Shown here: piece by piece, positions 12,041 through 45,385 of the stretch | How positions within the stretch are numbered: the stretch's first letter is position 1 | How the letters are laid out: every line of letters begins with the position of its first letter | IMG/VR virus record: IMGVR_UViG_3300031456_000005 | Coordinates: 1 to 48,844 of that record | Direction: 5' to 3' (one strand) | Length of the DNA: 48,844 nt | Source of the DNA: a virus | The notes under the pieces: model-generated | Database searches by the model: none | Told to the model about the DNA's origin: nothing | The model's input: the letters and a program-made list of their open reading frames with translations, nothing else | Made by a program: the position numbers and the translations under genes

Positions 12041-12128
12041 TGGTGCCCGCCCCGGGATTCGAACCCGAACCTCTACCGGCTCCCCTTGCGCAGGAACCGG
12101 CGGCGCTCTGCCGTTGAGCTAGGCGGGC
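12041..12128 (-). tRNA. tRNA-like gene with aberrant anticodon arm
   Basis: The minus strand gives a 7-bp acceptor (GCCCGCC/GGCGGGC), a normal D-arm (GCTC AACGGCA GAGC), a T-arm with loop TTCGAAT and an encoded ACCA end, 88 nt in all. The anticodon arm is abnormal: instead of 5+7+5 there is an 8-bp stem (CCGGTTCC/GGAGCCGG) with a 9-nt loop, offset three bases from the D-arm, so no anticodon can be assigned. It may be a degenerate, non-decoding or decoy tRNA. Confidence 0.6.
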
Positions 12129-15277: not shown

Positions 15278-15918
15278 GATGCGACCTCGACGTCGCTGCT
15301 GCCGGTGAGCCGTCGGTGGGCTTCCGCCCACGTCATGGACATGTCGCCGTCGGCCGCCTCGATCAGGCTTTCGAGGTAGTCGCGCCGCCTCTTGTCGTGC
15401 GCAGCGAACCGGGCGGTCAGCTCTTCGCCCCGCTCGGCGTAGATCTGAAGATCCTTGAGTGGTGCCTCAATCGGCTCGAACTGGTCGAGCGGGAACAGGG
15501 TGCCTTGCGGGTCGGTCATCTCGGCCAGCTGCCGGGCGCGGTCGCGGGCGATCTCGGCCGACGTGCGGTAGTCAGCAGGGGGCTCGCCGTCGAGTCCGGG
15601 GAATGACGGGAACCCGGCCTGAGTGAGCTCGTACCAGGTCGGGAATTCCGTAATGGCATTACGGAATTCCGTCTCCGTTTTGTAGGTGCGGGCGCACCGC
15701 AGGCGCCACTGGAGCTCGCGCTCGGAGAGGACGACATCGCGCTTCGCGTGGGCCTCGATCAGCTCGGCCGCCGCGCCGGGGCGCAACTGGCTGCTGCCGG
15801 GGGCGAACAGGTCGGGGTCGGCCAGCAGGCGAAGGCCCTGCATCCACCGTTCGCGGATAGTGCCTGAGTCGCCGGTCGCGATCGTCCGGGACTGATTGAC
15901 GTACTGCGTGGTCTTCAT
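15274..15918 (-). CDS. Hypothetical protein, early operon
   Basis: A 214-aa protein, helical in its first half (VVLSERELQWRLRCARTYKT) and basic at the end (RRRDYLESLIEAADG). A perfect 29-bp palindrome (15642-15670) is embedded in its coding region and encodes EFRNAITEF. Second gene of the early leftward operon, immediately after the HTH gene. Related Streptomyces and Micromonospora phage proteins exist in my memory without function. Confidence 0.65.
   Translation of the reverse strand: MKTTQYVNQSRTIATGDSGTIRERWMQGLRLLADPDLFAPGSSQLRPGAAAELIEAHAKRDVVLSERELQWRLRCARTYKTETEFRNAITEFPTWYELTQAGFPSFPGLDGEPPADYRTSAEIARDRARQLAEMTDPQGTLFPLDQFEPIEAPLKDLQIYAERGEELTARFAAHDKRRRDYLESLIEAADGDMSMTWAEAHRRLTGSSDVEVAS
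15642..15670. repeat. Perfect 29-bp palindrome within a coding region
   Basis: GGAATTCCGTAATG is followed after one G by its exact reverse complement. The arms are AT-richer than the surrounding DNA and contain the self-complementary GGAATTCC. Possible binding site for a dimeric protein or a replication or packaging signal; no function is established. Confidence 0.7.
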
Positions 15919-18806: not shown

Positions 18807-19250
18807 ATGGTCGAAGTCAAACGCAAGCCCGTGATCGTCCTGGTCGTCGCCCTGACCGCGGCGGCGATCATCGGCGTCCTGAACGGCGGGTTGTCGCCGG
18901 TCGGTGCGCCGGCCACCGCCGCGCCGCTCGCCGCCGACACGGCGACAGTCCCCACCACGCGGATCGTCGAGATCACCCTGACCGGTGAAGGCGTGACGTC
19001 GGCGGATATCACGATGCGGGTCGGCAACGACACTTCGCAGGAGAGCGTGGACGTCCCGATGGCGGATGAATTAACCGGCGAGCCGGGCATGACGTTTGCC
19101 GTTCCAGCCGGAACCTTCGTCTACTTCTCGGCCCAGATAGAGAACGATTACGGTGCGTTGGACTGCGAGCTGACGGTGAACGACGTCCAGGTCTCCGTCA
19201 GCCACGCGGACGTCGCCTACGGCATCGTGACCTGCTCCGGCAGGGTCTGA
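18807..19250 (+). CDS. MmpS-like membrane-anchored exported protein
   Basis: A 147-aa protein with an N-terminal signal anchor (KPVIVLVVALTAAAIIGVL) and an extracellular beta domain (EITLTGEGVTSADITMRVG, then FSAQIENDYGALDCELTVND and YGIVTC) with two Cys that could form a disulfide. The strand pattern matches MmpS family proteins, which in mycobacteria partner MmpL lipid transporters. Being in the lysogeny block it may be expressed from the prophage and modify the host surface or block superinfection (inference). A CACCAT box seven bases upstream of the ATG, with CGGACA 17 bp before it, may drive a leaderless transcript. Confidence 0.65.
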   Translation: MVEVKRKPVIVLVVALTAAAIIGVLNGGLSPVGAPATAAPLAADTATVPTTRIVEITLTGEGVTSADITMRVGNDTSQESVDVPMADELTGEPGMTFAVPAGTFVYFSAQIENDYGALDCELTVNDVQVSVSHADVAYGIVTCSGRV

Positions 19251-19264
19251 CCGCAAACGACGAA

Positions 19265-19334
19265 ACCGCCCCACCCGAAGGTGAGGCGGTCCGTCTTCCG
19301 GAGCCGAGCGATGCGGAAACGCTACCCGCATCGC
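19265..19334. terminator. Tandem hairpins between convergent operons
   Basis: The first hairpin (19265-19290) has an 11-bp stem with one mismatch and a CGAA loop. The second (19308-19334) has a perfect 9-bp stem (GCGATGCGG) and 9-nt loop. They separate the plus-strand lysogeny genes from the end of the minus-strand lysis operon. From 19335 to 19460 I see no gene. Confidence 0.7.
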
Positions 19335-19460
19335 CCCCGGGTCTTACTCTGCGGCGGGGGGACAGGGAGCCGCTGTGATGGCCTTCGGCTGGCCGCCGGA
19401 TCGCGACCCGCCTGGTGGCGTGTGGTCGGCCCGGACATCCATTCCCTCAGCGTCCCCCCT

Positions 19461-19853
19461 CTATGTGGAGGCTGGGTGCGGTGATGCTAACCCAAGCGCC
19501 GACCAGGCCATCGGACCAGCCACATACCAGTCGACGAACGGGCGGCGGCCGGACTCGGCGAGCAGCGGACAGCCGACCGCCGCGTCATCGATGTAGAGGT
19601 TCGCGTACTGCTTCGGCGAGGTGGACCAGCTCTGCTCGGGGTTCTCGTTGATACCCCAGAACGCCACGCCCCGCTCGGCACAGAACTCGACAGCCTCGGC
19701 CAGCGTCTGGTCGCTGCGCATCGTCCAGAGGATCAGCTTCACGCCCGCGCCCTGGAACCGGAGCAGCCAGTCGAACGCCCCCTCGACCTCGGCGCCGATC
19801 GCCGGGTATTCGTGCTCGACGAGCGTTCCGTCGAAGTCGACTGCGACGATCAA
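19461..19853 (-). CDS. HAD-superfamily phosphatase
   Basis: A 130-aa protein with the HAD motif I DFDGTL at residues 6-11, motif II-like LWTMRS and motif IV region IDDAAVGC, as in small phage or bacterial HAD hydrolases lacking a cap domain. It starts with TTG 19853, six bases after AAGGAG that spans the stop of the upstream gene. The substrate is unknown; a nucleotide or sugar phosphate is typical. It closes the late operon. Confidence 0.75.
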   Translation of the reverse strand: MIVAVDFDGTLVEHEYPAIGAEVEGAFDWLLRFQGAGVKLILWTMRSDQTLAEAVEFCAERGVAFWGINENPEQSWSTSPKQYANLYIDDAAVGCPLLAESGRRPFVDWYVAGPMAWSALGLASPHPAST

Positions 19854-19856
19854 CGG

Positions 19857-20030
19857 CTACTCCTTCGGCTTGTTGGGGATCTGGAACACGGCCAGCCCGG
19901 CGACGATCGCCGCGCCGACGATGGTCGCGATCTCCGCGTTGGTGAAACCGTCCGGGTAGGCGGTGATCCCGGCCGCTACTGCTGCGGCCACGCCGGCGGC
20001 GAGCGCCTTGCGGATCGTGGCGAGGTTCAT
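19857..20030 (-). CDS. Small membrane protein, holin candidate
   Basis: A 57-aa protein preceded by AGGAGT. It has two hydrophobic stretches (ALAAGVAAAVAAGITAY and IATIVGAAIVAGLAVFQ) separated by a short polar turn and ends with a charged tail (PNKPKE). Size, topology and location three genes after the endolysin make it a plausible holin or antiholin. Three other small membrane proteins in this cassette compete for that role. Confidence 0.65.
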   Translation of the reverse strand: MNLATIRKALAAGVAAAVAAGITAYPDGFTNAEIATIVGAAIVAGLAVFQIPNKPKE

Positions 20031-20032
20031 GG

Positions 20033-20386
20033 TCACTCCTTGGGGTTTCGTGCATGAGGTGCTGGTTGCTGCGGGCGTTTCTCCAGGTCACCCTCATCGG
20101 GTGAGCCCTCGCGCAGCGCCTGGATCGTGATGATGAACCGCCACCACAGGACGACCACCACCAGCCCGAACGCGGCGACCCGCAGGCCCTGGAACCAGGA
20201 CGAGTCACCGAAGATCTGCCGGACGCACCCCAGGACGAGCGGGATGGACACCGCCGCCATGTAGGCCATCAGGTGCCTGCCCCAGGTGCTGCGCCACCAG
20301 GTGACCCTGGAGAACACGATCACCGACCCCACGGCGGGGACCGCAGCGATCCACAGCAGGATGTTGCCGACGAGCTGGACGCTCAC
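20033..20386 (-). CDS. Membrane protein of the lysis cassette, holin candidate
   Basis: A 117-aa protein with three transmembrane segments (NILLWIAAVPAVGSVIVF, MAYMAAVSIPLVLGCV and LRVAAFGLVVVVLWWRF) and a polar C-terminal tail. Proteins starting this way (LLWIAAVPAVGS, then TWGRHLM) are frequent next to actinophage endolysins. GTG 20386 overlaps the stop of the gene upstream. Likely a pore-forming or regulatory holin component. Confidence 0.7.
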   Translation of the reverse strand: MSVQLVGNILLWIAAVPAVGSVIVFSRVTWWRSTWGRHLMAYMAAVSIPLVLGCVRQIFGDSSWFQGLRVAAFGLVVVVLWWRFIITIQALREGSPDEGDLEKRPQQPAPHARNPKE

Positions 20387-20565
20387 GCACGCCCTCCCCG
20401 CATCGCCTGGTGCATCCGAGCCGTGATCCGGTTCTCCTGGTGCAGCTCGCGGACCTCATCGGCGAGGCGATGCGTTTGCGCCTGCTGGGCTTTGCTCTTC
20501 TCCACCTGGGCTTTCGCTTCCTGAATCCCGGGCCGCAACCGCAGCCACCGCGTCAGGCTGATCAT
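20383..20565 (-). CDS. Small coiled-coil protein of the lysis region
   Basis: A 60-aa helical protein (GIQEAKAQVEKSKAQQAQTH, then LADEVRELHQENRI) with a coiled-coil pattern and a basic end. Similar short helical proteins lie beside holin genes in many actinophages without an assigned role. Coupled by 4-bp overlaps to both neighbours. Confidence 0.65.
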   Translation of the reverse strand: MISLTRWLRLRPGIQEAKAQVEKSKAQQAQTHRLADEVRELHQENRITARMHQAMRGGRA

Positions 20566-20816
20566 GAGGCCACCTCGCCCGCGGCCTCCGGCAGTGCCCG
20601 CAGAACATCGCGGGTCGCCCGACCGGTGCTGGCCAGCTCCTGGTTGATCTCCTGCTGGATCGTGAACGCCTCACGCCAGTACCCGCGTTCGGAACCGGCG
20701 ACCAGGTCGCCGCGCAGGATCGACCTGACGAACGCTGCGTTGAGGCCCACGCTGACGAGGATGACCAGCAGCAGAACCGCGACCACCGGGTTGTCGGGGA
20801 CAGCAGGCAGAGTCAC
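20562..20816 (-). CDS. Single-span membrane protein of the lysis region
   Basis: An 84-aa protein with one N-terminal transmembrane helix (PVVAVLLLVILVSVGLNAAF) and a cytoplasmic or periplasmic helical domain (YWREAFTIQQEINQELASTG). GTG 20816 overlaps the endolysin stop. It could be a holin, antiholin or spanin-like component. Confidence 0.65.
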   Translation of the reverse strand: MTLPAVPDNPVVAVLLLVILVSVGLNAAFVRSILRGDLVAGSERGYWREAFTIQQEINQELASTGRATRDVLRALPEAAGEVAS

Positions 20817-21705
20817 TGCGCCGGAGGGGGCGCGGCTGCCAGTGCAGCGAGGATCTGATCCACCTTGACGGTGAGGTTGCTGAGCTGACCGCCGTTGGAG
20901 GCGGCCTGGGCCTTGACCTCGCTCAGCTCGGCCTCCAGCGCGGCGAGCCGCTTCTCGGTCGATGCCGAGCGCAGGTCGAGCTCATGCAGCAGCCCGTCCA
21001 CCTGCTGGCCGGCCAGTGCTGGCTTGGCTGTCCAGACTTCATTGGCGATCTTCGCGAGGTCGGGCTCGGAGAGTGCCACATCTGCCTCCTGTGTCTTGCC
21101 GGCCAGGACCGCCTTGACCCTGGCCACAATCCCGGGGATCTGCGCGATCCGCTGCGGCCCGGGGCATTCCTTGCCGACCTTCGTCGACCACCGCTCGCCA
21201 CCCGGCTGCAGGAACCCCGCCGGGTGCGTGCCGCCGGAGTGCTGGACGCCGAGCCGGTGGAAGCCGATGCCCCGCCTGCCCGGCATGCTGTCGGGAATCA
21301 GAACCGCGGGGATCGAGTACTTCTTGCATGCCCACGCGGTGATCGCGACGATCGCGTCCAACTGCTTCGGGGTCCACGGCTCGATATCGGCTGGACTCTG
21401 GGGCGCGTTGTCGCCGGTCTCGATGGAGATGATCCGGTCGTTGCCCTCGAAGTTGGCGTCGGCACTGAACTCGGTGTCCTGCCACTGGTAGACGACGCCG
21501 TCGAGGCCGTCGCCCCATTTCCCGCCGACACCGAAGTGCGACTCGGTGCCGCCCCAGCCGTTGGCCCGGAAGAACCGGTCGGTGCTGCTGAGGTTCCCGA
21601 CCATGGTCACTAGGTATGCAGGCACACGATGTCGTGCGCCTGCATACGCGACTGGCCCTGCTCCTTAGCTAGGGGGCGGTATTTCGCCCCGGGGTATGTA
21701 GTCAT
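20813..21705 (-). CDS. Endolysin, N-acetylmuramoyl-L-alanine amidase, with interrupted reading frame
   Basis: Two segments read as one amidase. Segment 1, from ATG 21705, encodes 31 residues ending HDIVCLHT, then meets TAG at 21612. Segment 2, read from ATG 21604, continues [38 protein letters not shown] and KECPGPQRI, an Amidase_2 fold, then a coiled-coil C terminus. Deleting eight bases between two identical ACC codons (21615-21613 and 21607-21605) joins them into a 294-aa enzyme with the expected LHTMVG motif, whose His is a zinc ligand. Internal starts at 21625 or 21604 would lose it. Recoding, indel or inactivation are all possible. Confidence 0.75.
21614..21647. repeat. 34-bp near-perfect inverted repeat at the endolysin break
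   Basis: Arms of 16 bases (GTATGCAGG at the outer end, CACGA at the centre) with one mismatch and a 2-bp centre. In the mRNA it forms a strong hairpin ending at the ACC codon before the TAG. The central CACGAxxTCGTG is shared with the other copy of the endolysin 5' end. Confidence 0.8.
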
Positions 21706-21743
21706 TGGTGATCACCCCACTATCTCTTGATAGGGTGCAGAAC

Positions 21744-22310
21744 GTGAATGTCTGCACCAATGGTTGCGGTAGGAAGTGCTACGGCCGGGGTCTCTGCAGT
21801 CCCTGCTATCAGCGCGCAGCGCGAGCCGGGACACTGCCAGTTGACTGGGTGAAACCGAAGCGCGACCCCGTTGAGCGGATGCTGGCGAAGGTCGACAAGA
21901 GCGGCGAATGTTGGCTCTACCTGGGCGCGAACAACGGCAAGGACTATGGCGTCGTTGGCGACGCTCAGGGCCGCTCCGTCTATGTGCACCGGCTCATGTA
22001 CCAGCACTCCAAGGGACCGATCCCCGATGGCGTGGAGGTCTGCCACACCTGCGACGTACGCAACTGCGTGCGACCGGAGCATCTATTCCTCGGCACTCAC
22101 GCGGAGAACGAGGCGGACAAGGCCGCGAAGGGCCGCGCCGAACGCGGAGCGGACCGCTGGAGCGCGAAGCTCACCGAGGATGACGTCAGGTCCATCCGCA
22201 CCCGCGTGGCAGCCGGGGAGCGACGCCAGGCGCTCGCCGACGAGCACGGCGTATGTCTAGCTAACGTCGACCTGATCGTGACCCGCAAGCGCTGGAAGCA
22301 CGTGGCCTAG
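21744..22310 (+). CDS. HNH homing endonuclease inserted beside the endolysin 5' end
   Basis: A 188-aa protein on the strand opposite to all neighbours. Zinc knuckle [18 protein letters not shown] at the N terminus; HNH_3 core [35 protein letters not shown]-terminal HTH ([13 protein letters not shown], then [15 protein letters not shown]) for DNA recognition. GTG 21744 is preferred; GTG 21735 and TTG 21705 are alternatives. Its 3' end lies four bases from a truncated duplicate of the endolysin start, so the gene sits precisely between two copies of its probable target. Paralogous to the HNH at 509-1147. Confidence 0.85.
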
Positions 22311-22394
22311 CAGCACGATGTCGTGCCGGACCATGCGGGGCTGGCCCTGCTCGGGCGCCAGGGGGCGGAACTTCGCGCCGGGGTATGTCGTCAT
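22257..22394 (-). pseudogene. Orphan duplicate of the endolysin 5' end
   Basis: ATG 22394 opens [18 protein letters not shown], then [10 protein letters not shown], matching the first 28 residues of the endolysin ([18 protein letters not shown]...HDIVCL) at about 75% DNA identity. Similarity stops just after CACGACATCGTG, where the HNH gene begins; the frame then runs antisense to that gene and stops after 45 codons. This copy has the operon-side ribosome-binding context (GAGGAG) and is probably the original endolysin start, cut off by the insertion. Confidence 0.75.
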
Positions 22395-22412
22395 CGGGCG
22401 GGCCCTCTCTCC

Positions 22413-22649
22413 TCAAGTGTCGGGTTCATCGGGGTAGCCGTCGGCCTGCGCCGTATTCAGCGCCGCCTGCAGCTCCTGGTCGGTCAGCACGCCCTTGTCG
22501 ACGAGCAGCTTCACGAGGACGCCCACGATCGCCAGGACGGACGTCACCATGACCTGAGTTCGCTTGTCCGACAGGGACGATCCGAGCTTGATTGCAACGC
22601 CCTGCTGGGCCGTCCGCATGGCGACGACGTAGGCCTTGACGGTGGCCAT
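22413..22649 (-). CDS. Small membrane-associated protein upstream of the lysis genes
   Basis: A 78-aa protein with one hydrophobic segment (QVMVTSVLAIVGVLVKLLVD) and an acidic C-terminal helix. TGATG junction with the gene upstream. Location at the tail/lysis border suggests a holin-like or tail-tip accessory protein. The family is not recognised. Confidence 0.6.
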   Translation of the reverse strand: MATVKAYVVAMRTAQQGVAIKLGSSLSDKRTQVMVTSVLAIVGVLVKLLVDKGVLTDQELQAALNTAQADGYPDEPDT

Positions 22650-23188
22650 CAGAAAGGCAGCGTTCCGATGTGCCGGACGACGTAGGAGCCGATGCCGCTG
22701 GTGACCCGGAAGCTCTGCAGGAACGTCTGGGTTCCGGGGGTCAGGCCAGTCTGCAGGTAGGCGGTCGCGCATTTGGTCACCCGGTTGGCGCCCGAGCAGT
22801 CCACGGCGATCCCCACCGAGTCGTTGGCGGCAATCGTCGTCGCCCCGGACACGGCGTAGGACGCCCACGACCTGGCGCCCGCCGTGTCGTTGCCGAGCGA
22901 GGCGCCGTGGAAGACAAGGATTTTCGGGCCGGACGCCGAGTTGCACCCGGCCCCGCCGGTCAGGTTCGTGTAAGAGGTGCTGTTGGTTGTGTCGGTCCCG
23001 CCGCCGGTGTAGAGGTCGAAGTTTGGTGCCCGCGCAACGATCGTGTTGACCGCCGTGGCAACGAAATACTGACCGACCCCGGCCGCTTTCGCTGTGGCCG
23101 TCTCGTTCAGGTCGGCGCCCAGGATGTTCAATTGGGCAGCAGTGAGGGCATTGCCGGAAACGAAAGTCGGGGGCGCCGTCCAGGCCAT
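22649..23188 (-). CDS. Minor tail / receptor-binding-like protein
   Basis: A 179-aa protein beginning MAWTAPPTFVSGNALTAAQL, a motif found at the start of many phage tail-fibre or minor tail proteins, followed by a Thr/Gly/Ser-rich beta domain (YTGGGTDTTNSTSYTNLTGG) and a compact C-terminal beta region. ATG 23188 overlaps the previous TGA. As the last structural gene before lysis it could be at the tail tip. Confidence 0.65.
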   Translation of the reverse strand: MAWTAPPTFVSGNALTAAQLNILGADLNETATAKAAGVGQYFVATAVNTIVARAPNFDLYTGGGTDTTNSTSYTNLTGGAGCNSASGPKILVFHGASLGNDTAGARSWASYAVSGATTIAANDSVGIAVDCSGANRVTKCATAYLQTGLTPGTQTFLQSFRVTSGIGSYVVRHIGTLPF

Positions 23189-23634
23189 CAATGCCCCCGT
23201 TCGATCGCAGGCCGCTGGGCGGATTCGAGCGCCCCGGCTTGGACCTCGTTGTCGACGATGGACAGCAACCGCCGTGACGGGCCCCCGTCCTCAAGCGCAC
23301 CCGTGGGCACTATCCCGTGCCGCATGTTCTCTCCCACCAGGTCGATCAGATCCTCATCGGGACGCCAGTTCTGGGTGTCGCGGAACGGCCGGGCCAGCAC
23401 CAGGGCTTCGATCTCGGCGATCCGGTACGGCCAGTCCACGCCGCACGTCAGGCCGCACCCGCCGTGTGAGAGGCGGCAGTAGAACCGGGCAGCATCCAGC
23501 CCGCCCGTGGTGTTGTCGTCGCAGCGGCCGCGCTTCTCGACGTTCCCGCAGCCGCGCGGGCAGTCGGCCACCCACTGGCCCGCGTACAGCCAGGCGACAG
23601 CACGCAGGTCAGTAGCCAAGTGGCGTCGCCCCAT
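23188..23634 (-). CDS. Hypothetical zinc-binding protein in the tail region
   Basis: A 148-aa protein with Cys pairs in its first half (CPRGCGNVEKRGRCDD, then CRLSHGGCGLTCG) and a helical second half. It overlaps the end of the minor tail gene upstream by 26 bases. Similar Cys-rich small proteins sit between minor tail genes in Streptomyces phages. Function unknown. Confidence 0.6.
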   Translation of the reverse strand: MGRRHLATDLRAVAWLYAGQWVADCPRGCGNVEKRGRCDDNTTGGLDAARFYCRLSHGGCGLTCGVDWPYRIAEIEALVLARPFRDTQNWRPDEDLIDLVGENMRHGIVPTGALEDGGPSRRLLSIVDNEVQAGALESAQRPAIERGH

Positions 23635-25078
23635 CGAGCAGTGACGTGCCGAGGATGAACACCGATGTCGGGGCCGTCGGTACGGCCTCCAGTCCGAAGG
23701 TGATCTCGTGGGCGTTGGTTCCCTCGGTTGAATGGCTGATCGATTCGATGAAGAACGGCACCGACGCCAGCGCTGTCTCCGGCTCGACCACGGTCACCCG
23801 GTCCGACAGGTCCAGCGCCAGCAGCGCGGCCAGCCGGGCATCCTGCGTCCTGGCGCAGGAGAACCGCACGCTCAGGATCGGTAACGGCTGCTTGCGCTGC
23901 AGGATGAACAGGTCCGCGATGTCCCGGGCGTCCTGCCTGGACGCCCACACTGGCTCGGAACCGGACGGCAGGCCCCGCTGCCCGTAGTCGGCGATGGAGG
24001 TCGCATCGGTCGCGGTGATCTGGAAGGTCCGCCGGACCGGCACGGACGTGGCGCGCAGCGCGAGGCCCCGGATGGTGGCGCCGGCACCGGTCGCGGTCAC
24101 CGTGATCGAGGTGGATGCGCCGGAGGTCCGCGACAGGGTGACGCTGGACACCGCGCCGCTGATCACCTCGAAGTCGGTGTCCTCCTCGGGGACGACCGCG
24201 CTGTGGAACGGCTCGGTCGCCTGGATGGCAACCACTGTCGAACCGGACGGCACGACCGTGGTCGTCTCGTCGGTGGACCAGACGACCTCCGCTGCACCGG
24301 TCGATGACCGCTCGGTCACCGAGATGCTCACCGAGTTCACGATGTTCCGCCAGGCGTCGTCGTACGCGAAGCCCTTCGACATGATCGGTTCAGCTGAGCC
24401 CGAGGTGCCCCGCCACGTGGACTGGCTGACCAGGCTCGCCGACCGGATGAGCCGATGGTGCCGGTCTCTGAAGACGATCTCCCCGGACGGGCCGATCGTC
24501 AGCAGTGCCGGCGGTCCTTCCGAAACAACGATCTGGGTGAGCATGTCGAGGACGTCCGCGCCGTCCGCCCACCACCACGGGACGACCGTCGCGCCCGTGT
24601 CCAGGTCCCGCCCGCCGGTCCAGCCGGCCGCGGTCAGGATGGTGTCGATGATCGCGCCGGTCCGCAGGCCCTCGAACAATTCGGTGCTGATGGTCTGCCC
24701 GCGGAAGTCGGCCAGCCAGTCCACGAGGCTGAAAGTGACCTGCTTGGACTCGACGTCCGGGTTGATCGGTGAATCGTCGGTGTGGCCGGAGAAGATCGCG
24801 TAGGTCGTCCCGAGAACGGTGCGGGTGATCTTCACCGGCCGCGCCGGTTTCACGTTCCCGGTCAGCGGCGAGCCGGTGTTGCGCGGCGAGTAGTCGCGAG
24901 TGCGGTTGTCGAGGCTGAACGACCCGCGGCCGGCGATGATGGGCGTCAGGTTGGTGGACTGGTCCCGGCCGAACTGCGCCTCCACCGGCCCGCGCACCCG
25001 GTCGGTGACGACGTCGCCCACGTTGACGTAGCTGCCGTTCTTGTTCCAGTCCACGGCGACCAGGAGCTGGGAGCTCAC
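23609..25078 (-). CDS. Minor tail protein
   Basis: A 489-aa protein immediately after the tape measure, the usual place of the distal tail / hub protein. It begins SSQLLVAVDWNKNGSYVNV and contains a DUF-like tail region (FSGHTDDSPINPDVESKQVT, LVDWLADFRGQTIS) then beta-rich repeats. The GTG start overlaps the tape-measure stop by GTGA. Likely part of the baseplate or tail tip that contacts the cell. Confidence 0.75.
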   Translation of the reverse strand: MSSQLLVAVDWNKNGSYVNVGDVVTDRVRGPVEAQFGRDQSTNLTPIIAGRGSFSLDNRTRDYSPRNTGSPLTGNVKPARPVKITRTVLGTTYAIFSGHTDDSPINPDVESKQVTFSLVDWLADFRGQTISTELFEGLRTGAIIDTILTAAGWTGGRDLDTGATVVPWWWADGADVLDMLTQIVVSEGPPALLTIGPSGEIVFRDRHHRLIRSASLVSQSTWRGTSGSAEPIMSKGFAYDDAWRNIVNSVSISVTERSSTGAAEVVWSTDETTTVVPSGSTVVAIQATEPFHSAVVPEEDTDFEVISGAVSSVTLSRTSGASTSITVTATGAGATIRGLALRATSVPVRRTFQITATDATSIADYGQRGLPSGSEPVWASRQDARDIADLFILQRKQPLPILSVRFSCARTQDARLAALLALDLSDRVTVVEPETALASVPFFIESISHSTEGTNAHEITFGLEAVPTAPTSVFILGTSLLDGATPLGY

Positions 25079-36251: not shown

Positions 36252-36758
36252 CTACTTCGTTGCTACGGCTCGGGTGTCAGCCGGGGACGGCTGCGAATCG
36301 ACGACCACACCGGACCAGCCGGCCTCGGCGAGTACCCGCTCGAGTTCTGGCGCCGGCACGTTCGCGTAGTGCTCGCCCGGGTGCAGCCGGAACTCACCGT
36401 CGATCGCCGAGTGCGGCGGCCGGCCGGGACCGGCCGTGGTCACGATGAACCGGCCGCCCGGGGCGCAGGCCTTGAAGGCGGTCCGGCAGATCGCCGGCCA
36501 GCGCGCGGTGTGCTCGAAGATCTCGGCCGCGACCACGACGTCCCAGCGGCGCCCGTCCGGGTCCCAGCCCGCGGCGTCCGCGATGATGTCGACGTCCTCG
36601 GGTCGCTCGCCCGGGCGGATGTCGAGCACGGTGTACGTGGTCGCGTTCGGCCAGAGGTGCTTCGGGTTGCCGTTGATGTCGCGGCCGCCGAGGTCCAGGA
36701 CGCTCACCGGTTCGTCGGTGGCGTGCTTCGCGATCCACTGCATGGCGGCGTCATGCAT
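36252..36758 (-). CDS. SAM-dependent methyltransferase
   Basis: A 168-aa class I methyltransferase. Motif I is VLDLGGRDING (residues 20-30), with YTVLDIRPGE as the acidic second strand, DVVVAAEIFEH as motif IV and GGRFIVTTAG as motif VI. It overlaps the glycosyltransferase gene by eight bases and probably acts with it, for example on sugars added to virion proteins or host envelope glycans. DNA modification is possible but the family type does not favour it. Confidence 0.8.
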   Translation of the reverse strand: MHDAAMQWIAKHATDEPVSVLDLGGRDINGNPKHLWPNATTYTVLDIRPGERPEDVDIIADAAGWDPDGRRWDVVVAAEIFEHTARWPAICRTAFKACAPGGRFIVTTAGPGRPPHSAIDGEFRLHPGEHYANVPAPELERVLAEAGWSGVVVDSQPSPADTRAVATK

Positions 36759-38205
36759 TCTCGGCCAGCCGCTTCTCGAACAGGGCCCGATCCTGGTCGA
36801 CGTGCTTCTGCCCCAGCTGGTACGTCTCGTCGTCCTCGGCCAGGCCCCACAGCGGGTGCAGGTGCTCGACCTTCGACTCCCTGGCCATCACCCACACCCC
36901 GCGCTGCTTCGCGACCGTGACCAGCTCGTCGTCGACGAACCAGTGGGCGTACCCCTCGTGGCAGACCACCTTCGGGCCGTCCCAGGACGCGCCCCGCTCG
37001 TCGACGTACGCGCGGCGGACCATCAGGTGCGTGGCGTGCTCACCGGCCAGCACCCGTGGGTTGTGCAGGTCGTTCGTCCCGATCACGTGCGCCCCGTCGC
37101 GGGCGGCGTGCTGGGCGTGATCCAGCCAGCCCGGCGCGAACCGCACATCGTCACCGACCAGGAACAGCCACGGCTCCGACGTCTGCCGGTACGCAAGGTT
37201 GCACTTCTGCGCGAACGTCGTGCCCGGCTCGCCGTGCCGCTCACCGGCCACCCACTCGTCCGACGTCAGCAGCACCTCGGCACCGGCCGCGCGCCAGGCT
37301 GCCGCGGTGACCGTGTCGTCCGGGTGAGCGACCGCGTACACCGTCGCCAGGCTGGTGGACGCTCGCAGCGAATCCATGAACGGTTTCGCGTTGCTCGGGC
37401 GGGACATCACCGGGACGATCACCGCGGTCTGCTCGGTGGCCGGCGGGACGGACGGCGCCATCCGGGACAGGGCGACCTGCCCGAAGTAGTCGCTCTCGCC
37501 CACCCACACCGTCTTCTGGTGGGTGGTCTTCACCCCGGTGTGCACGAAGATCGGGATCTGCATGGCCCCGGCCCGCAGGCACATCGACAGGTCCTCCGAC
37601 ACCACGTTCCCCGTCGTGGTGTTCGGCACCTTGTCGTACCAGGTGGGCCCGTACTGGTCGCGCATCCGCTCCAGGACCGAGCGGTGAATCAGGATCGCCG
37701 CCGACCCGGTGCCGGCCACCTGGACGAGAGCGTCCTGCGCGTAGTCGAAGCGGACCGCGAAGCCCATCTGCCCGTCGTCCAGCTTCACCCAGTCGAACAC
37801 GGTCGGCGTCGGGCTGCATCGCCACCCGCCCAGGCCGTCCGGTTCGGTCTCCCGGTACGAGAACGCCAGCGCCCCAACGACCGGGCGGTCCACCGGGTCC
37901 GCCGCCTCCAGCAGCCGGTCCACGATGTCCGGGCCAAACGCCATGTCGGTGTCCAGCCAGAACAGCCACTCGGCCTTCCGTTCATCCAGGAAGATCTTCG
38001 CGGCCATGTTCCTGGCCTCAGGCAGCCCGTCGGTGCCGTACCGGACGGCGATCCACCCGCCGCGCAGGATCCGGGCCTCGTTGAACAGGTCGTAGCCGAC
38101 CATCTCGATCATCGAGTGGTGCCAGGAGTAGGCGACGTTGTTGGAGTGCACGTACGCGACCGCGACCGCCCCGGCCGGGGGGGCCTCGTCCTGCGGTTCA
38201 GCCAC
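36751..38205 (-). CDS. Double glycosyltransferase
   Basis: A 484-aa protein with two GT-A domains. Domain 1 (residues 12-265) has VAVAYVHSNNVAYSWHHSM and the metal-binding DTD in LFWLDTDMAFG (85-87). Domain 2 (270-484) has AVIVPVMSRPSNAKPFMDSL and LVGDDVRFAPGWLD. The two-domain form suggests either a bifunctional enzyme or two linked transferases. It starts with GTG 38205. In phages such enzymes add sugars to structural proteins or to DNA; location inside the structural operon favours virion glycosylation (inference). Confidence 0.8.
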   Translation of the reverse strand: MAEPQDEAPPAGAVAVAYVHSNNVAYSWHHSMIEMVGYDLFNEARILRGGWIAVRYGTDGLPEARNMAAKIFLDERKAEWLFWLDTDMAFGPDIVDRLLEAADPVDRPVVGALAFSYRETEPDGLGGWRCSPTPTVFDWVKLDDGQMGFAVRFDYAQDALVQVAGTGSAAILIHRSVLERMRDQYGPTWYDKVPNTTTGNVVSEDLSMCLRAGAMQIPIFVHTGVKTTHQKTVWVGESDYFGQVALSRMAPSVPPATEQTAVIVPVMSRPSNAKPFMDSLRASTSLATVYAVAHPDDTVTAAAWRAAGAEVLLTSDEWVAGERHGEPGTTFAQKCNLAYRQTSEPWLFLVGDDVRFAPGWLDHAQHAARDGAHVIGTNDLHNPRVLAGEHATHLMVRRAYVDERGASWDGPKVVCHEGYAHWFVDDELVTVAKQRGVWVMARESKVEHLHPLWGLAEDDETYQLGQKHVDQDRALFEKRLAENA

Positions 38206-38443
38206 GCCGCACCGTACCCCGCTTCTCGCCGGGGCCCGCCGTGACCTGCTCGACCGGCGGTTCATCCAGCGACGCGGGCCGGCTGCTGTAGGCGAGCCCG
38301 TAACGCGGGTCCGTGCTGAACAGGCCCGGGTTCGCCACCACCACCGGGTCATCGGCGGGCCAGTGCTCACCGATGCGCGTGGTGACACGGGCGCCGTCCG
38401 GGGTGTGAACCGAGGTCGTTCCTGTCGCATACACAACGTCCAT
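38198..38443 (-). CDS. Conserved small actinophage protein
   Basis: An 81-aa protein preceded by GGAGGT. Pattern VHTPDGARVTTRIGEHWPAD and DPVVVANPGLFSTDPRYGL is familiar from small proteins near capsid genes of many actinophages. Function unknown; possibly a head accessory protein. Confidence 0.7.
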   Translation of the reverse strand: MDVVYATGTTSVHTPDGARVTTRIGEHWPADDPVVVANPGLFSTDPRYGLAYSSRPASLDEPPVEQVTAGPGEKRGTVRRG

Positions 38444-38464
38444 TGCTTTACCTCCAGGTAGGCG

Positions 38465-38517
38465 ACGGCCCCGGACACCTGGGTCCGGGGCCGCCTTCCC
38501 TCGCTGATCCGGCGAGG
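38465..38517 (-). terminator. Tandem hairpins after the capsid genes
   Basis: First hairpin 38465-38492: 11-bp stem (CGGCCCCGGAC) and 6-nt loop. Second 38497-38517: 7-bp stem (CCCTCGC) and 7-nt loop. They lie between the capsid-side gene ending at 38522 and the small gene starting at 38443, and could lower expression of downstream genes relative to capsid. Confidence 0.65.
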
Positions 38518-38521
38518 GGTT

Positions 38522-38788
38522 CTAGTTGAAGCCGAGCTCACCCAGCCGCTTGTCGATGTCGGCGATCGCCTCGTCGGCGGCCTTCACCAGGTCGCCGTCG
38601 GCGTTTAGTGCCTGACGGTTCAGGACGGCGCCCTGCCGCTCGGCCAGCAACTGCTGCACCGTCGGATCCGTGGACTCCCCGACGCCCGCCGGGGGATCCG
38701 GGATGGAGTCCCGGTCGGACTTCGCGGGTTTGGCCGCCGGAGCCTCGGGCTTCGCCGGAGCGGCCGGCTTCTGAATCTGTTCGGCCAT
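38522..38788 (-). CDS. Small protein downstream of the capsid gene
   Basis: An 88-aa protein with a strong AGGAGG site. The N-terminal half is Ala/Pro/Lys rich and probably disordered (PAAPAKPEAPAAKPAKSD); the C-terminal half is a helical hairpin (VQQLLAERQGAVLNRQALNA, then AADEAIADIDKRLGELGFN). Placed directly after the major capsid gene, it might be a head decoration or stabilising protein. Confidence 0.65.
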   Translation of the reverse strand: MAEQIQKPAAPAKPEAPAAKPAKSDRDSIPDPPAGVGESTDPTVQQLLAERQGAVLNRQALNADGDLVKAADEAIADIDKRLGELGFN

Positions 38789-45016: not shown

Positions 45017-45385
45017 TCACCACGCGCGCGTGGTCTTGAGAACGGATCTCACCGCGCGCACTCGTCCGCGCTTGCGGTTGCCGTAGATCGCACCCGATCG
45101 GTCACTGCACCGAGCGCACTCGGCCTGCGTGTTCGACAGTGCGTTGATCTGCTGGTCTGTCCACCCGAGCCGCTTGGCCTGGTCGCGCTCGACGATGTGC
45201 CCGACGACGAGCGACCGGGGGTTGACGCGCCTGGTGCCAGGCAGGTAGCGGGGTGCGCCGTACTGGATGGCCCTGCCACACCGTGCGCAGGGTAGGCCAG
45301 CGCGGATGTGGTGCTGCCGGATGGTGACGCGCCACTCGGTGGTGGTGAGGAGTGGGTCTGATCCCTTGCTGGCCCGGCGTGGCAC
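45017..45385 (-). CDS. Packaging-associated HNH endonuclease
   Basis: A 122-aa HNH protein: CARCGRAIQYGAPRYL, then VVGHIVERDQAKRLGWT and ALSNTQAECARCSDRSGA, ending in a basic tail. Its place immediately before the terminase genes matches HK97-type phages, in which this enzyme works with terminase in cos cutting. GTG 45385 follows GAGGTGG. Confidence 0.85.
   Translation of the reverse strand: MPRRASKGSDPLLTTTEWRVTIRQHHIRAGLPCARCGRAIQYGAPRYLPGTRRVNPRSLVVGHIVERDQAKRLGWTDQQINALSNTQAECARCSDRSGAIYGNRKRGRVRAVRSVLKTTRAW

Follow-up and report, generated by a model that had tools for sequence, protein, structure and literature searches.

In at least 18 mycobacteriophages HNH endonuclease genes are found inside the lysis cassette or close to it, and have been proposed as a driver of lysin mosaicism in which the joints are sometimes faulty; HNH insertions also occur in and around the lysin genes of actinophages, some of which display changed lysin ends (PMC3706429). 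In mycobacteriophage LittleE an endonuclease gene is held, in antisense orientation, within an intron of the capsid gene (PMC3706429). In fungal mitochondria endonuclease ORFs carry with them a foreign, duplicated end of the gene that they enter (PMC3630166). HNH genes of T4-like phages cause co-conversion of flanking sequence and the splitting of genes, as seen for the Aeh1 gene nrdA and the T4 topoisomerase gene, both of which are split by HNH genes (PMC2988022). A different outcome is represented by T4 gene 60, in which translational bypass involves matched GGA codons, a stop codon, a take-off stem-loop, a 5' stem-loop and the nascent peptide (PMC3014915, PMC5009743), the 5' stem-loop acting as a motor (PMC5009743). 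Synthetic constructs support stop-hops across 9 nt from one matched codon to the other, and the terminase of Streptomyces phage Hau3 is a suggested case of bypassing (PMC5009743).

The locus described here lies in a viral contig of 48,844 nucleotides (IMG/VR record IMGVR_UViG_3300031456_000005), the whole of which is referred to as the window. Read along the minus strand, the locus comprises a truncated lysin 5' end (copy 1), an HNH gene in antisense, the motif GGGGTGATC, another lysin 5' end (copy 2), an eight-base flaw and the lysin body. The two 5' ends were revealed by a repeat search, which paired 21625-21708 with 22314-22397 as an 84-nt direct repeat of 79% identity; the original prediction had overlooked that a second, diverged lysin 5' end is located across the HNH gene from copy 2. 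Copy 1 (22311-22394, minus strand), which its reading frame and the repeat suggest is the native 5' end, stands directly behind the upstream gene, is preceded by a Shine-Dalgarno-like GAGGAGAGAGGG (22414-22403) and is truncated where the HNH ORF ends. Indeed the HNH ORF (21705-22310, plus strand) enters copy 1 at about codon 28, and its stop codon abuts the truncated fragment. The encoded protein matches Pfam HNH_3 (E 5.4e-15) and PHROG HNH families, in agreement with the original proposal that an HNH gene flanks the break; translation probably starts at GTG 21735 or 21744, and the alignments with phage homologues stop no more than a few residues short of the C-terminus. Copy 2 (21610-21705, minus strand), the putative carried-in 5' end, is an ORF of 31 codons that ends in TAG, with a TGA directly after it in frame, and follows an extended Shine-Dalgarno-like GGGGTGATC (21710-21718, minus strand) that is complementary to the 3' end of 16S rRNA. 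An endonuclease ORF thus has the native lysin 5' end on one side and a diverged copy of it on the other. The G+C content of copy 1 is 71% (GC3 96%) and that of the lysin body 68% (GC3 89%), compared with 61% (GC3 77%) for copy 2 and 65% for the HNH gene, such that copy 2 and the HNH gene look foreign beside copy 1 and the body. Further HNH-type ORFs are found in the window at 509-1156, 1438-2400, 2109-2822 and 45017-45385, all on the minus strand, one of which is an HNH_3 member, the same family as the lysin insert.

The lysin body (20813-21607, minus strand) consists of an Amidase_2 domain, from which the first strand and the zinc histidine are missing, plus a C-terminal region. Its match to the Pfam profile (E 7e-8) begins only at profile position 39, whereas that of an intact relative, locus L009, begins at position 5. 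The junction (21605-21615, minus strand), which lies between the LHT of copy 2 and the MVG of the body, contains eight extra bases compared with every relative. It comprises ACC (21615-21613), TAGTG (21612-21608) and a second ACC (21607-21605), followed by ATG (21604-21602), the stop codon TAG (21612-21610) being placed directly after the first ACC. At ACC-ATG-GTC (21607) the amidase resumes in a different frame, which remains open for 264 codons to 20813 and has its first ATG at 21604. The sequence, frames and codon coordinates therefore bear out the original prediction that the endolysin is broken by a TAG and a change of frame next to the zinc-histidine codon. Three internal starts are available in the amidase frame, GTG 21625, GTG 21610 and ATG 21604, and were rejected as a means of rescue since, as had been claimed, the product of each lacks the zinc histidine of LHT. 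A minus-one frameshift was likewise set aside: no slippery heptamer was seen, and the product would contain extra residues around the histidine. Two candidate sources of the eight bases were also considered too weak: TAGTGACC occurs once more in the genome, far from the junction, and TAGTG is also present in the leader of copy 2 at 21722.

Relatives of the lysin body were collected by scans of IMG/VR and GTDB (loci L009-L040, of which some are the same contig or prophage fetched twice, such that the independent relatives number somewhat below 32). All are uninterrupted through the conserved H-T-M/A codons, the closest being L009 (60%). As every relative is contiguous over the corresponding codons, the interruption of the lysin is real and specific. 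Furthermore, since these relatives contain no P0002-like HNH gene in their fetched flanks of about 4 kb, the interruption is specific to this phage and coincident with the HNH gene. The consequence for the enzyme may be gauged from four residues, H31, T32, H148 and C179 (L009 numbering), that are invariant in 16 aligned relatives; H31, H148 and C179 correspond to the His-His-Cys zinc ligands known for the amidase family. The structural model of L009 (pLDDT 89), which matches solved amidases such as 6srt, AmiA and AmpD, places H31 in a strand comprising residues 27-33. The relatives thus retain the Amidase_2 fold and the His-His-Cys site, while in the window the junction parts the first histidine from the body. 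Judged against the model, a start at ATG 21604 would remove strand 27-33 and the first ligand. Because the three ligands are invariant and the modelled strand holds H31, the body alone should be inactive.

The locus is probably the footprint of an HNH insertion with an imprecise eight-base junction: the duplication, the HNH gene in its midst, the frame break and the intact relatives are all observed directly, and this reading accounts for the majority of the features. The target of a homing-type HNH gene was probably the lysin (amidase) gene, which it entered around codons 28-32 together with the 5' end of a related lysin gene and the ribosome-binding site of that 5' end, the HNH gene and the lysin start having been divergent neighbours in the donor; we infer the route of transfer. 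Copy 1 would then be the non-functional remnant of the recipient's own 5' end, its role at the head of the body having passed to the carried-in copy 2. Copy 2 and the body appear to have been joined imprecisely, the eight extra bases placing TAG-TGA between LHT and MVG; these bases could derive from end-joining at the break, or from re-cutting and mis-repair of the restored target. The lower G+C content of copy 2 and the HNH gene, relative to copy 1 and the body, is consistent with the insertion. It should be emphasized, however, that searches for a donor with the HNH-copy 2 arrangement, and for the same HNH gene beside related lysins, found neither, and that the exceptional hairpin at the joint (see below) is not accounted for by such an event. 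In addition, the carried-in end does not restore the reading frame, owing to the eight extra bases and the TAG-TGA, and the locus is therefore a flawed or variant case of homing insertion rather than a standard member.

The fate of the lysin in this phage is less straightforward. Since the body is devoid of the first beta strand and the zinc histidine, the lysin is either lost or works only if two pieces assemble, and the most probable outcome is that two pieces, or no lysin at all, are produced. Translation of the 31-codon ORF may be followed by termination-reinitiation at ATG 21604, which would yield a body of 263 amino acids without the strand and the histidine. Against a dead lysin are three features of the genome. 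Firstly, at 84 conserved columns the body displays two deviations that are unique to the window, compared with six unique to L009, and the 264-codon remainder thus shows no sign of decay or relaxed constraint. Secondly, the ORFs scanned yielded no second recognisable endolysin, the tape-measure protein displaying only a weak match to NlpC/P60. Thirdly, an identical 127-bp direct repeat is present at the two ends of the contig (window 1-127 and 48718-48844), and the contig thus looks like a complete phage genome, circular or terminally redundant. A phage in which the lysin is simply dead should not persist, and the lesion is therefore either very recent or the gene still works. The presence of an integrase and a repressor-type gene indicates a temperate phage; temperate phages can excise and be sequenced without lysing. 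The genome also contains a predicted tRNA-Ala (TGC) gene (12041-12128, minus strand) and, within the structural gene block, methyltransferase and glycosyltransferase ORFs (36252-38541, minus strand).

If the lysin works, it would do so through the assembly of two pieces or through recoding. It could be argued that translational coupling yields a 31-residue peptide and the 263-residue body, which then form an active amidase together: only a few bases separate TAG-TGA from ATG, a Shine-Dalgarno sequence precedes copy 2 and the body appears to be under constraint. Phage genes split by HNH insertions, such as the ribonucleotide reductase of Aeh1, which is made in pieces, provide a precedent (PMC2988022). 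The complementation required would be difficult, however, with a central beta strand and a zinc ligand residing on a very short peptide, and we regard an active two-piece lysin as unlikely.

The arrangement could also be an artefact, in which the eight bases or the duplicated 5' end arose from the mis-assembly of strain variants around a near-perfect hairpin. The locus is known from a single metagenomic contig, and there is indeed a strong hairpin at the site. A further reason for caution is that the contig of a sister phage, L055, which is 88% identical in the tail protein and 83-84% identical at the DNA level in two blocks (84% near its end), stops just before the lysin region and therefore provides no check of the junction; two neighbour-gene scans for the lysin of the sister phage found nothing. 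Mis-assembly is nevertheless improbable, as 21% of positions are different between the 5' copies, the HNH ORF that separates them has a normal codon structure, and the terminal repeat of the contig suggests that the assembly is good.

The antisense endonuclease gene in the LittleE capsid-gene intron raises the question of whether the HNH gene similarly lies within an intron, with copy 1 being joined to the lysin body by RNA splicing. In keeping with such a reaction, the segment before ACC-ATG ends in G. Copy 1, however, is without the CLH codons, and an in-frame join that keeps a histidine (LLGH-TMVG) would add a residue found in no relative and would not follow a U. The presumed intron would, in addition, include another lysin 5' end. 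In the region 19000-24000 no Rfam match to a group I or group II intron was obtained at E values up to 5, and no splice pair yields the family sequence. An intron was thus rejected, and splicing is very improbable.

The feature of the junction that the insertion leaves unexplained is a 34-nt inverted repeat (21614-21647) inside copy 2, with 16-nt arms and a 2-nt loop, that forms 15 Watson-Crick pairs and one G-U pair. Its coordinates are as originally proposed: at its end the repeat overlaps the first two positions of the final ACC codon. With arms of 16 it is the longest hairpin in the genome, compared with 15 or less elsewhere and 13 or less in three Markov shuffles, and RNA folding of a 131-nt segment gave a z score of -5.2. 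The hairpin is 5' of, and touches, the candidate take-off codon; the predicted fold adds weaker pairs that involve the gap. The palindrome is partly inherent in the conserved peptide (CACGACATCGTG) and is perfected by the rare codons CGT and CAT. In relatives at most 11 pairs are formed, and when the 12 residues were re-coded synonymously 200,000 times, 16 of 16 pairs were reached only 160 times (p about 8e-4). The hairpin is thus unlikely to have arisen from codon choice alone; selection for the hairpin, arm-to-arm correction during replication, or chance are possible causes. Elsewhere in the genome a near-perfect inverted repeat (GGAATTCCGTAATGGCATTACGGAATTCC, 15642-15670), which is AT-richer than the genome as a whole, is possibly an operator.

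The original prediction interpreted the junction as a translational bypass element, in which the ribosome detaches at the TAG with ACC in place and re-pairs on the ACC eight bases further on, yielding a full-length amidase of 294 amino acids; the hairpin, on forming behind the ribosome, could pull the mRNA. The components invoked by analogy with T4 gene 60 (matched codons, a stop adjacent to take-off, a 5' hairpin and an HNH gene) are all present. The take-off codon is also where the genome's strongest hairpin ends, and the apparent constraint on the body, with no other endolysin recognised among the ORFs scanned, would fit a product that is still made. The synthetic 9-nt stop-hops, the motor role of the gene 60 stem-loop and the Hau3 terminase suggestion offer precedents (PMC5009743). 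The matched codons, however, have a trivial cause. The threonine between the histidine and the next residue is invariant, and each lysin fragment thus brings an ACC of its own; given the duplicated 5' end, the pair follows from the duplication and is not informative for bypass. The junction 18-mer has no second match in IMG/VR and the 8-nt gap is found in none of the relatives, and there is therefore no conserved bypass signal. No obvious Shine-Dalgarno-like element precedes the landing codon (by eye), at 8 nt the gap comes nowhere near the 50 nt bypassed in gene 60, and TAG-TGA with an ATG 2 nt later also fits ordinary termination-reinitiation. The step from these components to bypass is thus unsupported, and we consider that there is little likelihood of a ribosomal hop at this site. 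Equally hard to credit is the combined proposal that an HNH element replaced the lysin start and that the resulting frame break is tolerated through a hairpin-driven ACC-ACC hop of eight bases, a minimal bypass element born of homing.

Insertion of an HNH gene with a carried-in gene start, the preferred reading, may be set against four described systems. The Cluster J mycobacteriophages Omega, Optimus, BAKA and Courthouse (PMC3706429) resemble the window in several respects: the host is a high-GC Gram-positive bacterium, the lysis cassette includes a free-standing HNH gene, and lysin ends (of lysin A in those phages) are altered or imported, with imprecise junctions. In these phages, however, the lysin ORF is intact, and no remnant of an old 5' end was recognised in gp50 in the lysA region of Optimus, whereas the present locus retains both 5' ends and has an out-of-frame joint. 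The Aeromonas phage Aeh1 nrdA/mobE locus (PMC2988022) shares an HNH gene in a functionally critical region and two coding pieces, but the pieces are large and there is no duplication, in contrast to the 31-codon piece and duplicated 5' end of the lysin. T4 gene 60 with mobA is similar in that an HNH gene lies near a split phage gene with a stop after take-off, matched codons and a hairpin; its 50-nt gap is inside the downstream gene piece and its bypass is demonstrated, while the 8 nt considered here are at a fusion point and any bypass is predicted from sequence. A comparable arrangement is seen in atp6 of Allomyces and atp6, atp9, cox2 and nad3 of Glomus (PMC3630166), where an endonuclease ORF lies between the native gene end and a diverged, carried-in end. 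In contrast to the lysin locus, these are mitochondrial genes in which LAGLIDADG or GIY-YIG enzymes accompany a 3' end that is in frame, rather than a phage gene in which an HNH enzyme accompanies a 5' end that is out of frame. If the lysin is active despite the break, the locus would contain a natural bypass signal of very small size, or else encode a split amidase. This phage appears to provide a case of an endonuclease gene between the native and imported 5' ends of its target gene, an arrangement already known from fungal mitochondria and suspected to underlie the mosaic lysin genes of actinophages, and illustrates how homing can shuffle gene starts and how the joint can misfire.
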